DNA from: Embleya scabrispora DSM 41855
Lineage (GTDB): Bacteria > Actinomycetota > Actinomycetes > Streptomycetales > Streptomycetaceae
Length of the DNA stretch: 64,000 nucleotides
Assembly (NCBI RefSeq): GCF_000372745.1
Contig: NZ_KB889675.1
Location: 18,388-82,387 of the forward strand
Direction of reading: 5' to 3'
The notes under the pieces were generated by a model. That model ran no database searches and was not told where the DNA came from. It saw nothing but the letters and a program-made list of their open reading frames with translations. Of the stretch, positions 50,827 to 64,000 are shown piece by piece. The position numbers were made by a program, and so were the translations under genes. The stretch's first letter is position 1. Every line of letters starts with the position of its first letter.

Positions 50827-52002
50827 CTAGGACTTCATGAACGGCGGGATGTCGAGATCCAGGTCGTCCTTGATCGGCTCCGGCACCAACGGCGCGCGCG
50901 GGCTCGGGGTGGTCGGCGCCGGGTAGGTGGTCGGCGCCGGGGTCGGCTCGTGCAGCACGCCCGGCCCCTGGTGCTGGGACGGCCGCCCCACCGGCTCCGG
51001 CCGCGATGCCTGCGTCGTGGTCGCGGGCTTGCCCAGCTCGCTCTTGGACGGCGGCTGCCCGCCGTCGAAGCCGGCCGCGATCACGGTGACCCGCACCTCG
51101 TCGCCGAGGGCGTCGTCGATGACCGCGCCGAAGATGATGTTGGCCTCGGGGTGCGCGGCCTCGCTGACCAGCTGCGCGGCCTCGTTGATCTCGAACAGGC
51201 CGAGGTCGGAGCCGCCGGAGATGGAGAGCAGCACGCCGCGGGCGCCGTCGATGGACGCCTCCAGGAGCGGGCTGGAGATGGCCATCTCGGCCGCCGCCAC
51301 CGCACGATCGTCGCCGCGCGCCGAACCGATCCCCATCAGCGCCGAACCCGCCTCGGACATCACCGACTTGACGTCGGCGAAGTCCAGGTTGATCAGGCCC
51401 GGCGTGGTGATCAGATCGGTGATGCCCTGCACACCGGACAGCAGCACCTGGTCGGCCGAGCGGAACGCGTCCAGGACGCTGACCTGCCGGTCGGAGATGG
51501 AGAGCAGTCGGTCGTTGGGGATGACGATCAGGGTGTCGACCTCGTCGCGCAGCTGCGCGATGCCGTCCTCGGCCTGGTTCGCGCGGCGCCGTCCCTCGAA
51601 GGTGAACGGGCGCGTGACCACGCCGATGGTGAGCGCGCCGAGCGAGCGGGCGATATTGGCCACCACGGGGGCGCCACCGGTGCCGGTGCCACCGCCCTCG
51701 CCCGCCGTGACGAAGACCATGTCGGCCCCCTTGAGGACCTCCTCGATCTCCTCGCGGTGGTCTTCGGCGGCCTTGCGACCGACGTCGGGGTTCGCGCCGG
51801 CGCCGAGGCCGCGGGTCAATTCCCGGCCGACGTCGAGCTTGACGTCGGCATCGCTCATGAGGAGGGCTTGGGCGTCGGTGTTGATCGCGATGAACTCGAC
51901 GCCCTTGAGACCGACCTCGATCATCCGGTTGATGGCGTTGACACCGCCACCGCCGATACCGACCACCTTGATGACTGCGAGGTAGTTCTGGGGTGCTGCC
52001 AC
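50827..52002 (-). CDS. ftsZ: Cell division GTPase FtsZ
   Basis: Forms the Z-ring. 391 residues from a GTG ([13 protein letters not shown]) with GAGAGG 7 nt upstream. GTP-binding signature [20 protein letters not shown]-terminal [16 protein letters not shown], synergy loop [22 protein letters not shown]. The conserved C-terminal peptide [10 protein letters not shown], which binds SepF and FtsW, follows a Pro/Thr-rich linker. Preceded by a 342-nt intergenic region with promoter elements. Confidence 0.98.
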
Positions 52003-52204
52003 GTCGAAGGCCTCTCGCCTCGAGTTCCGGTCGGCGTGCCGTGGTTCCGGCATGCCGACATTTGCCGACTTGGGGAGGTCGGGACGCGATTTCCGCGAGC
52101 CACCAAAACCCTCACCCTCAGGTATAGAGTTACACCCATTCGCATCGAACGCCGCCGATGCGAGCGGTGCGGATTACTGCTTTGTCAACCTGGGGGCTAG
52201 GCCG

Positions 52205-61331: not shown

Positions 61332-64000
61332 TCACCACTCGATCGGCAGGTCCAGGGGCGCGGTTCCGCTGGGGGCGATCCGGCGGCTTTGCAACGCGAA
61401 TGTCATCACCTGCTGGAACACCGGCGCGCACAGGCTGCCGCCACCGCCGTCGATGCCCGGCGCCTGGAGCGTGACGGATACCACGACCTGTGGATCGTCC
61501 GCCGGGGCGAAGCCGATGAACGAGGTCGTGTAGCCGTTGTAGCGGCCGGTCTTGGGGTCGACGCGGTTCGCGGTGCCGGTCTTGCCCGCGACCCGGTAGC
61601 CGGGGATCCGGCCGTTCTTGCCGGTGCCCCCCTCGTCGGCGACCACCGTCTCCAGCATGTCGCGCACCTGGCGGGCGGTCTCCGGGCTGACCACGACGTT
61701 CGACTTGGGCGCCGCGGCGGGCTTGAACTTCCCGTCCGGGCCGGTGCTGCCCTTGACCAGGCTCGGTTCGATCCGCACGCCGCCGTTGGCGATGGTCTGG
61801 AACACCGAGGTGGCCTGGACCGAGTTGACCGACAGGCCCTGGCCGAACGGGATCGTGTACTGCTGGGAGCCGTTCCACTTCTGCGGCTGGGCCAGGATGC
61901 CGGGCGTCTCGCCCGGGAACTTCAGCCCGGAGGGCTGTCCGACGCCGAACCGGGTCAGGTAGTCGTGCAGCTTGGCGTTGGCCTCGGCGCGATCGGGCGA
62001 GAGCTGTTCCGAGGCCAGGATCGTGCCGATGTTGCTGGACTTGGCCAGCACGCCGGCCAGGGTGAGCTGCTGGGTGGCGTGGTCGTGCTCGTCCTTGAAC
62101 AGCTGGTCGGCCCGGGCGAGCCGGTTCGGCACGGTCACGCGCGTGCCCGGGCCGGCCCGGCCCTCCTGGATGACCGCGGCCATGGTCATCACCTTGCCGG
62201 TGCTGCCCGGCTCGTATGCCTCCTCGACGGCCCGGTTGCCGAGGTTGTGCACGTCGCCGGGGCCGATGTGGTTGGGGTCGTAGCCGGGCGCGGTGGCCAT
62301 CGCCAGGATCTGGCCGGTGCGCACGTCCTGGACCACCACGGTGCCCGACTCGGATTTGGTCTCGGTGACCTTCGCGGCGATCAACTGCTCGGCGTACCAC
62401 TGCAGGTCGCGCGAGACGGTCAGCTGCACGTCGGCCCCGGGCACCGCCTCGCGCCCGGTGAGGTCGGAGGTGGGCACCCGGCGGCCGTAGACCATCTCCT
62501 GGGTGGTCCGGCCGTCCTTGCCCGCCAGTTGGCCGTCCAGGGTCATCTCCAGGCCGCCGCCGCCGTGGCCGGTGGCGTTGACGAAGCCGACCAGGTTCGC
62601 GCCGACCGGTCCGGCCGGGTAGACCCGCTTGCTGTGCTTGGTCGAGTAGATGCCGACCAGGTCGTTGCGGCGCACCTTGCCCAGGTCCTTCTGCACCTGG
62701 TGGATGTGCTCCCACACCGCGGGATCGACCTGTTGGGCGAGCACCACGTAGCGCGACTTGGGCGTGCGCAGTTTCTCCTCGATGGCCACCGGGTCGCCGT
62801 TCACGAGCGGGGCCAGCGCCAGCGCGGTGGCGTGCGGGTCGTACTTCTGCACCTGGGTGGGGTCGGCGGTGACGTCGTACGCGTCCACCGACTTGGCCAG
62901 GCTCACCCCGAAGGCGTCGGTGAGCGCGCCGCGTTCGGCCGGGACGTTGACGGTCTGGGTGCGCTTGGCGGCGGCCTGCGCGGCGTACGCGGGCGCGTCC
63001 AGGGCCTGCAACTGGAGCAGTCGGCCGGCGAACAGGGTCAGCACCACGCCGAGCGCGATCAGCCCGATCCGCAGCCGCTTGCGCGGGTCGCCCATCCGCG
63101 CGGCGGCCCGCGGCCGGCGTGCGGGTCGAGGCCGCCCGGCCGGGTGCGCGTCGTGGGTACGACCGGGCCGGGCCGCCCCCGGACGCGGTCGGGCCGGGCG
63201 GACCGGGCGAGCGCCGGCATGGTCGGCCCGAGCGGCGTCCCGCGCGCCGCGCGCGGAGCCGTCACCGGCGGCCGGGCGCAGACGCCCGGCCCGTTCCGGA
63301 CGGCCGGGCACATCGACACCCCGCACACCCGGCCGCGGGCGCGGACGTGGACCGGGACGCGGCGCATCCGCACCGTCCTCGGCCGGTGCCTCCGTCGGCC
63401 GCGGCCGCGGCCGCGGCCGCGGCCGACGCGCCGCCGCACGCTCCTCCCGAGACCGCCCGTCCTCTCCCGCCCGCCGCCCGTCCCCGGCCGCGCCCGCATC
63501 GGCCGCGATCTCCCCCGCACCCGACCGAACCGATCGCCCACCGGACACCGCGGCATCGCCACGTGGACGCACCGGGCGCCCACCGGAAGCCGCGCCACCG
63601 GCACGCGCCGGACGCCCACCCGACGCCGAGTCGCCGGCGCCGGTCGGGCGCTCACCCGAGGCGGCGGCACCCGCCCGCAGCCGGGACCAGAGCCCACCCG
63701 AGGCGCCCGCACCGGAACGCGGCCGACCGGACCGCCCGCCGGAAGCCGAATCGCCCGCGCCGGGACGCGCCGAACGCTCACCGGACGCCGAATCACCGGT
63801 ACGCGGCCGGCCCGGACGCTCGCCGGACGACGCGTCACCCGCACGCGGGCGCCCCCATCGCCCAGCGGAGCCGCCCGGGCCGGAACGCGACCGATCCGAG
63901 CCCTCGCCCCCCGACGCGACGTCGCCCGCCCGAGGTCGAGCCGGACGTCCGCCGGCAGCCGCGTCGCCGCCGCGCGACCCGGCCGGACGCTCGCCGGACG
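61332..64000 (-). CDS. ftsI: Penicillin-binding protein FtsI (PBP3) with long repetitive N-terminus, 5' end unresolved
   Basis: Septal transpeptidase. From MGDPRKRLRIG (ATG 63095) the typical protein begins: one membrane helix (GLIALGVVLTLFAGRLL), dimerisation domain, then the transpeptidase with S-T-G-K (EPGSTGKV), S-S-N (LAKSSNIGT) and K-T-G (VAGKTGTA). Upstream the frame stays open to base 64000: an Arg/Pro run, then 14-residue repeats. The only in-frame starts seen are ATG 63095 and GTG 63572, neither with a ribosome site, so the true start may be beyond the right edge. A Pro/Arg-rich cytosolic stretch is usual in Streptomyces FtsI, but not this length. Confidence 0.9.
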   Translation of the reverse strand, partial: SGERPAGSRGGDAAAGGRPARPRAGDVASGGEGSDRSRSGPGGSAGRWGRPRAGDASSGERPGRPRTGDSASGERSARPGAGDSASGGRSGRPRSGAGASGGLWSRLRAGAAASGERPTGAGDSASGGRPARAGGAASGGRPVRPRGDAAVSGGRSVRSGAGEIAADAGAAGDGRRAGEDGRSREERAAARRPRPRPRPRPTEAPAEDGADAPRPGPRPRPRPGVRGVDVPGRPERAGRLRPAAGDGSARGARDAARADHAGARPVRPARPRPGAARPGRTHDAHPAGRPRPARRPRAAARMGDPRKRLRIGLIALGVVLTLFAGRLLQLQALDAPAYAAQAAAKRTQTVNVPAERGALTDAFGVSLAKSVDAYDVTADPTQVQKYDPHATALALAPLVNGDPVAIEEKLRTPKSRYVVLAQQVDPAVWEHIHQVQKDLGKVRRNDLVGIYSTKHSKRVYPAGPVGANLVGFVNATGHGGGGLEMTLDGQLAGKDGRTTQEMVYGRRVPTSDLTGREAVPGADVQLTVSRDLQWYAEQLIAAKVTETKSESGTVVVQDVRTGQILAMATAPGYDPNHIGPGDVHNLGNRAVEEAYEPGSTGKVMTMAAVIQEGRAGPGTRVTVPNRLARADQLFKDEHDHATQQLTLAGVLAKSSNIGTILASEQLSPDRAEANAKLHDYLTRFGVGQPSGLKFPGETPGILAQPQKWNGSQQYTIPFGQGLSVNSVQATSVFQTIANGGVRIEPSLVKGSTGPDGKFKPAAAPKSNVVVSPETARQVRDMLETVVADEGGTGKNGRIPGYRVAGKTGTANRVDPKTGRYNGYTTSFIGFAPADDPQVVVSVTLQAPGIDGGGGSLCAPVFQQVMTFALQSRRIAPSGTAPLDLPIEW
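63504..64000 (-). repeat. 42-nt (14-codon) imperfect tandem repeat in frame with ftsI
   Basis: At least 12 degenerate units of about S-G-x-R-P-x-R-P-R-x-G-D-x-A read in the ftsI frame (for example SGERPGRPRTGDSA and SGERSARPGAGDSA), with spacing in whole codons and no stop. CGGACGCTCGCCGGACG recurs at 63813 and 63984. The tract runs off the right edge. Next to it, 63397-63425 is (GGCCGC)n encoding R-P repeats. Confidence 0.8.

Follow-up and report, generated by a model that had tools for sequence, protein, structure and literature searches.

The essential septal transpeptidase FtsI (PBP3) is generally depicted with hardly any protein on the cytosolic side of the membrane. The closest described system sits on a different division protein, mycobacterial FtsK, whose N-terminal extension (nFtsK) has phosphatidic acid and cardiolipin as binding partners and keeps FtsK confined to the septum, is dispensable for the septal localisation of FtsK, and bound no DNA in EMSA according to the portions of PMC13277299 available to us. 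The M. smegmatis nFtsK given there has about 121 residues with a net charge of +23, 15% arginine and 3.9% lysine (PMC13277299, same portions). In M. tuberculosis, PBP3 (PbpB) is likewise a septal transpeptidase, and it is linked to FtsZ via FtsW; as set out in the accessible part of PMC3989709, however, it is FtsW that contacts FtsZ, and the C-terminal region of PBP3, not a cytosolic tail, that contacts FtsW.

The window, by which we mean the whole stretch of 64,000 nucleotides that was analysed (C114:18388-82387 of the source assembly, G000, which comprises 11.39 Mb in 190 contigs), contains an ftsI frame on the minus strand with its stop at 61332. The frame is open up to base 64000, and of the start codons within the window GTG 63572 lies most upstream, as the first-pass annotation had stated. 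From a juxtamembrane ATG (MGDPRKRLRIGLIALG...) to the stop (61332..63095, minus strand), the frame encodes the membrane helix, PBP_dimer domain and transpeptidase domain. The whole protein (P0001) matched PF00905 (2.8e-73) and PF03717 (2.2e-15), both of which were over cut-off in each of the four FtsI proteins scanned, and the closest solved structure was PbpB, 6kgh (5.9e-81). Its translation contains STGK, SSN and KTGT, which we take to be the catalytic motifs SxxK, SxN and KTG. The curated NCBIfam FtsI model NF011685 gave 246 bits, below its cut-off of 737, and none of the 22 and 23 NCBIfam models listed for two FtsI proteins reached its own cut-off; as these models describe other lineages, the miss was not read as exclusion from FtsI. 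The gene lies between ftsL and murE in a division and cell wall cluster with the order mraZ-like, rsmH, ftsL, ftsI, murE, murF and mraY, the last three inside the window. Some of these gene names are presumed from sequence, and rsmH and ftsL were additionally identified by alignment in relatives.

Upstream of this otherwise ordinary FtsI, the repeat tract forms the middle of a predicted cytosolic N-terminal tail of 430 residues, in frame with the enzyme and beginning at a conserved start. The annotation had pointed to the DNA right of the window as the place for an in-frame start and ftsL, and both were found there: the ftsI start is a GTG at window-equivalent 64385 (G000:C114:82772, L009:3773), 385 bases outside the window, with GAAGGGA 6 bases ahead of it and ftsL upstream. 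FtsI then has 1017 residues, 430 of which precede the Met at 63095, and 301 codons plus 2 bases of those 430 fall inside the window (63096..64000, minus strand; supported by the coding signal in relatives). The window belongs to Embleya, a soil actinomycete in the family of Streptomyces, and we compared four genomes of this genus, namely G000, G004, G020 (Embleya hyalina NBRC 13850) and G031. In the first three, TDGRRDPRDPRDPDEPRSAG directly follows the start codon at an equal distance from GAAGGGA, and G031 has TTG, GAAAGGA and the same start motif, with 9- and 3-base gaps. In both G004 and G020 an in-frame stop precedes the conserved TTG by 4 codons, so the ftsI start is bounded, and none of three candidate starts upstream of the GTG in the same open frame of G000 had a ribosome-binding match. 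Because the best ribosome-binding match at Embleya ftsI starts is 4 bases and none reached the 5-base threshold of the scan, these start calls rest on conservation. The G031 contig ends 35 codons into ftsI (L090, G031:C27, 5076-5181) and the remainder of the gene was not found in its 1650-contig assembly; the repeat tract probably breaks assemblies.

The first 128 residues of the G000 tail are Arg/Pro/Asp-rich and without repeats. Residues 129-293 (64001-63507) form an array in which a degenerate unit, each copy about 14 residues long on the pattern SG-x-R-P-x-R-P-R-x-G-D-x-A, occurs twelve times, as recognised by unit scoring and autocorrelation (63507..64000 on the minus strand, with the first base of the array at 64001). 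The tract had been thought to continue beyond the window edge; instead, the array begins at the edge, and about 128 non-repeat residues lie to its right. Units start at tail residues 130, 144, 158, 173, 187, 201, 215, 229, 243, 255, 267 and 281, that is, at spacings of 14, 14, 15, 14, 14, 14, 14, 14, 12, 12 and 14, and a spacing of 12-15 takes away the earlier argument for coding from a constant unit length. When the 10 fixed positions of the unit as first read were scored against 500 shuffles, the tail held 16 matches at a score of at least 5 (10 of the 12 units plus 6 elsewhere; shuffle mean 5.2, maximum 13), 11 at a score of at least 6 (shuffle maximum 4) and 7 at a score of at least 7 (shuffle maximum 1); the 25 matches at a score of at least 4 were not above the best shuffle. 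The repeat tract noted at first reading is confirmed. Autocorrelation of the tail protein peaked at lag 14 (0.536, against a top value over all lags of 0.362 in 200 shuffles), and that of the tail DNA at lag 42. Residues 294-430 are Arg/Pro-rich and most basic beside the membrane, and their translation contains the RPRP runs noted earlier: RPRPRPRPRP (63396..63425, minus strand) and PRPRPR in an Arg/Pro-rich juxtamembrane stretch (63333..63350, minus strand). No Pfam entry fell in the tail region of the four proteins scanned, a search of the source genome with the tail returned the tail itself as sole match, and a DNA search of that genome with the tract gave, besides the tract, short matches only.

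By composition the G000 tail is 22% Arg, 19% Ala, 18% Gly, 15% Pro and 12% acidic, with no lysine and a net charge of +45, of which the final 60 residues hold +11. Across the six tails that could be read in Embleya and its sister genus, net charge was +34 to +56, a modest +0.07 to +0.12 per residue, with interspersed acidic residues making up 11-18%. Hydrophobic residues came to 2.9-9.1% in frame 0 versus 7.6-28.6% in the two other forward frames, and a charge-hydropathy plot placed all six tails among disordered proteins. The predicted structure of the window protein, made with five sequences, had a mean pLDDT of 32 in core and tail alike, which makes that prediction no evidence for tail disorder. 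The annotation's in-frame extension of over 300 residues, basic and predicted to be disordered, is upheld at 430 residues, and it is poor in hydrophobic residues. We considered the absence of lysine as a sign of selection on charge and rejected it: the other forward frames have 0-2 lysines in five of the six tails, and the counts were 6 and 2 in G018 and 4 and 2 in G029.

Comparison of relatives at the sequence level shows the tail to be translated in the FtsI frame and under purifying selection. Between G004 and G020, tail dN/dS was 0.395 (95% interval 0.27-0.57, 2000 bootstraps) and, over the part downstream of codon 40, where the two are 85% identical, stayed at 0.41 (0.27-0.61). Substitutions at codon positions 1, 2 and 3 numbered 34, 30 and 75 of 377 each (p 1.5e-6). 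An unforced DNA alignment of the same two tails had seven gaps, all multiples of three, and every one of its 1131 aligned bases stayed in frame; dN/dS in this alignment was 0.44 in frame 0, 1.19 and 1.81 in the other forward frames, and 1.79, 1.73 and 0.49 in the antisense frames, the last value being expected because the third positions of that frame coincide with those of the coding frame. At the tail ends of G000 (375 bases from the start, and 240 from the end together with 90 of the core), all 13 gaps against G004 and G020 were multiples of three, these comparisons not being independent, whereas only 5 of 13 gaps were so in the 300 bases upstream of the start across the three Embleya pairs. 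The triplet rule thus sets in at about the called start, and selection on protein at this junction may act from the ftsI start codon onward. In full-length DNA alignments of the G000 tail to the other two, the aligned bases that kept the frame numbered 764 of 1155 and 882 of 1147, and the gaps that were multiples of three numbered 9 in each, out of 15 and 16; we ascribe the out-of-frame middle of these alignments to misaligned, over-diverged repeats; protein-guided dN/dS of G000 against the others was 0.38 and 0.56, with the same doubtful alignment underneath. The G+C content of the tail is 89%, 84% and 77% at codon positions 1, 2 and 3, and third positions reach 97% in the FtsI core while the ftsL-ftsI spacer has 76% overall. 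With positions 1 and 2 high and position 3 close to the spacer, this pattern points to selection on residues and not to base bias alone. The lack of stops in frame 0 was set aside as evidence for coding, since the tails were delimited as open frames.

These data bear on whether the tract belongs to the mature protein at all. It would lie outside if translation began at an internal start (GTG 63572 or ATG 63095) or if the tail were cut off, and GTG 63572 does have a ribosome-binding match of 4 bases, equal to that of the distal start. Codon-level constraint, however, extends upstream to the distal start and ends there, and no start equivalent to GTG 63572 is listed at that site in G004 or G020, which leaves this explanation very improbable. 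A start near 63095, which the annotation had raised as the finding that would speak against the extension, is unsupported: ATG 63095 has no ribosome-binding match, and the codon is not Met in the sister genus.

Tract length and dN/dS among relatives, the comparison suggested at first reading, came to 384-430 residues in Embleya (G000 430, G004 384, G020 387) and, between the two closest tails, to 0.40. The sister genus g2 (three genomes), probably Yinghuangia by a name inferred from kinship, has tails of 714 (G029), 544 (G018) and about 330 residues (G001), which brings all six readable members of the two genera to at least 330. The Streptomyces-like genus g9 has an Arg/Pro-rich stretch at the same site before the membrane helix, but it measures 40-67 residues in all ten genomes measured, so the annotation was right that the extension is far longer than in such relatives. 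As a measure independent of start calls, the distance between the rsmH stop and the membrane segment of FtsI was 1942-2675 bases in the six clade members and 535-1419 bases in 55 other family genomes. These 61 genomes and G031, which was not measurable, make up 62 of 121 genomes, a sample that is not random but holds at least one genome per genus plus many with long open frames or high similarity. In an FtsI tree of 46 rows, midpoint-rooted and with a long-branch warning, the six long-tailed members fall on one side of a branch with support of 100/100 (200/200 bootstrap trees), for which a single origin is the simplest reading. In G001 (L056), RPRARGGAG, the conserved tail-start motif of the sister genus, directly follows ftsL but in a different frame, and the TTG start is lost, so that its tail start has either been relocated, been broken (a natural truncation) or suffered an assembly error. 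Frameshifts among relatives had been named as a finding against coding; none separates G004 from G020, but the tail start in G001 is off frame.

Elsewhere in the family, basic tails of 50-190 residues are common, and G105 (genus g6, L113) has a 305-residue repeat tail on FtsI. Like that of Embleya, it is long, low in complexity, free of lysine and placed before the same helix, but it is built of Gly/Gln/Ala/Ser units with 12.5% Arg; its different composition and its position elsewhere in the FtsI tree mark it as a separate expansion. Across the phylum, 16 of 148 matching genomes were read, eleven of them picked for long open frames; in the 15 that were usable, the stretch from the core back to the first in-frame stop ahead of it measured 8-326 residues, and none of these 15 reached the Embleya tail length. 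Open-frame length was rejected as a measure of tail length in the phylum: of the four genomes whose frames exceed 1017 residues, three carry short tails in which an in-frame stop lies 8-103 residues ahead of the core, and G145, for which no placement was obtained, was left out. Our search of titles and abstract starts in open-licence PubMed Central returned no paper on a long FtsI tail.

How the tail evolves admits two main readings. We propose, with a probability of roughly 0.45, that it is a tether, basic, disordered and quick to evolve, which keeps the septal synthase confined to the division site. The alternative is near-neutral growth, in which an ancestral short basic tail tolerates in-frame expansion of GC-rich repeats, its length has no function, and only disorder and non-toxicity are kept; we regard this as a serious rival, nearly as likely and close behind. 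Much of the sequence variation fits growth of this kind. Periodicity was above all 200 shuffles in three of the six tails, with lags of 14 (G000), 65 (G020) and 119 (G029); in G001 lag 14 passed the 95% level only, and autocorrelation found no periodicity above shuffles in G004 or G018. The 14-residue unit is thus absent from the other two Embleya tails and loses the importance first given to it. Tail dN/dS between G004 and G020 is 0.40 versus 0.14 for the core, a sign of relaxed constraint, and synonymous divergence is 2.5 times that of the core (1.7-3.8). Third positions in the tail resemble spacer DNA and look unselected for codon use, and the G105 lineage has arrived at a long tail separately. 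The adjoining ftsL-ftsI spacer (L009:3774-4181, window-equivalent 64386-64793) is enlarged too, at 408, 315, 303 and 613 bases in the four Embleya, and in G000, G004 and G020 it contains short tandem repeats, so that the whole ftsL-ftsI junction may be prone to expansion. Against near-neutral growth, dN/dS is clearly below 1 all along the tail, the first 40 residues are identical in G004 and G020, and at least 330 residues have been retained in all six clade members read. What is conserved, as far as the six tails tell, is predicted disorder, arginine richness and net positive charge, and not the repeats; we have here a low-complexity tract whose residues and frame are kept while its repeats get replaced.

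If the tail is a tether, it would be disordered and act as a flexible electrostatic link. Its positive charge, weak, spread over many sites and strongest beside the membrane, would cause FtsI, together with FtsW, to dwell at anionic septal surfaces, which may be anionic lipids where the membrane curves inward, the acidic C-terminus of FtsZ, or both. The conserved first 40 residues could be a specific docking site, and the bulk of the tail would have grown and been replaced by in-frame repeat expansion, with charge and disorder as the only filter. FtsZ, with an acidic C-terminal end in its translation, is encoded in the window (50827..52053, minus strand) and is a speculative candidate partner. 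In M. tuberculosis, C-terminal aspartates of FtsZ are required for FtsW binding, as described in the accessible part of PMC3989709. A contact between FtsI and Wag31 had been reported before, but two-hybrid assays failed to confirm it according to the part of PMC9878328 available to us, and DivIVA is therefore a weaker guess as partner. A bolder version, which we consider unlikely, treats the tail as a lysine-free, arginine-only polyampholyte that reaches from the membrane to the Z-ring and binds FtsZ C-termini and anionic lipid multivalently, perhaps with condensation, and thereby sets the timing or the confinement of septal synthesis. If that were true, there would be a direct cytosolic link between FtsI and FtsZ, specific to the lineage of Embleya and its sister genus.

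The tether reading draws on the likeness to nFtsK. Both extensions are N-terminal, cytosolic, arginine-rich, net positive and predicted to be disordered, sit on a late divisome membrane protein, occur in actinobacteria and have a lineage-specific length. They differ in that the carrier is FtsI and not FtsK, in length (330-714 residues versus up to about 150 in nFtsK) and in charge and composition (+45 in 430 residues with 22% Arg and no Lys in the G000 tail, versus +23 in about 121), and also in that the FtsI tail has a long repeat array, of which none is reported for nFtsK in the available portions of PMC13277299. Since it is carried by FtsI, the tail may work like nFtsK, but it is not nFtsK. 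With it, the kind of basic disordered extension known from mycobacterial FtsK would be represented by two cases on two different proteins, and a clade with 330-714 predicted-disordered cytosolic residues on FtsI offers a natural experiment on septal-synthase tails. The positive charge and arginine richness could instead suggest an arm that binds DNA or the nucleoid and couples septum synthesis to chromosome position, perhaps via a second chromosome, as Embleya is reported to have a 4.2 Mb second replicon in the part of PMC13152386 available to us. We consider this improbable, because nFtsK, which is more strongly charged, bound no DNA in EMSA (PMC13277299, available portions) and because acidic residues are interspersed along the tail. 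We rejected a link between the tail and the second chromosome, as G018 combines its 544-residue tail with a one-contig genome and the tail therefore does not follow that replicon.

Two minor observations concern the DNA and RNA at this junction. The enlarged ftsL-ftsI spacer could hold a separate ftsI promoter. When the tail was recoded with the codon usage of the core, predicted RNA structure strengthened to -56.1 +/- 1.1 from -51.1 kcal/mol per 90 bases, and 0 of 60 recodings had RNA structure as weak as the native tail. The T-ending codons of the tail may make translation easier, or may just reflect the absence of codon selection.
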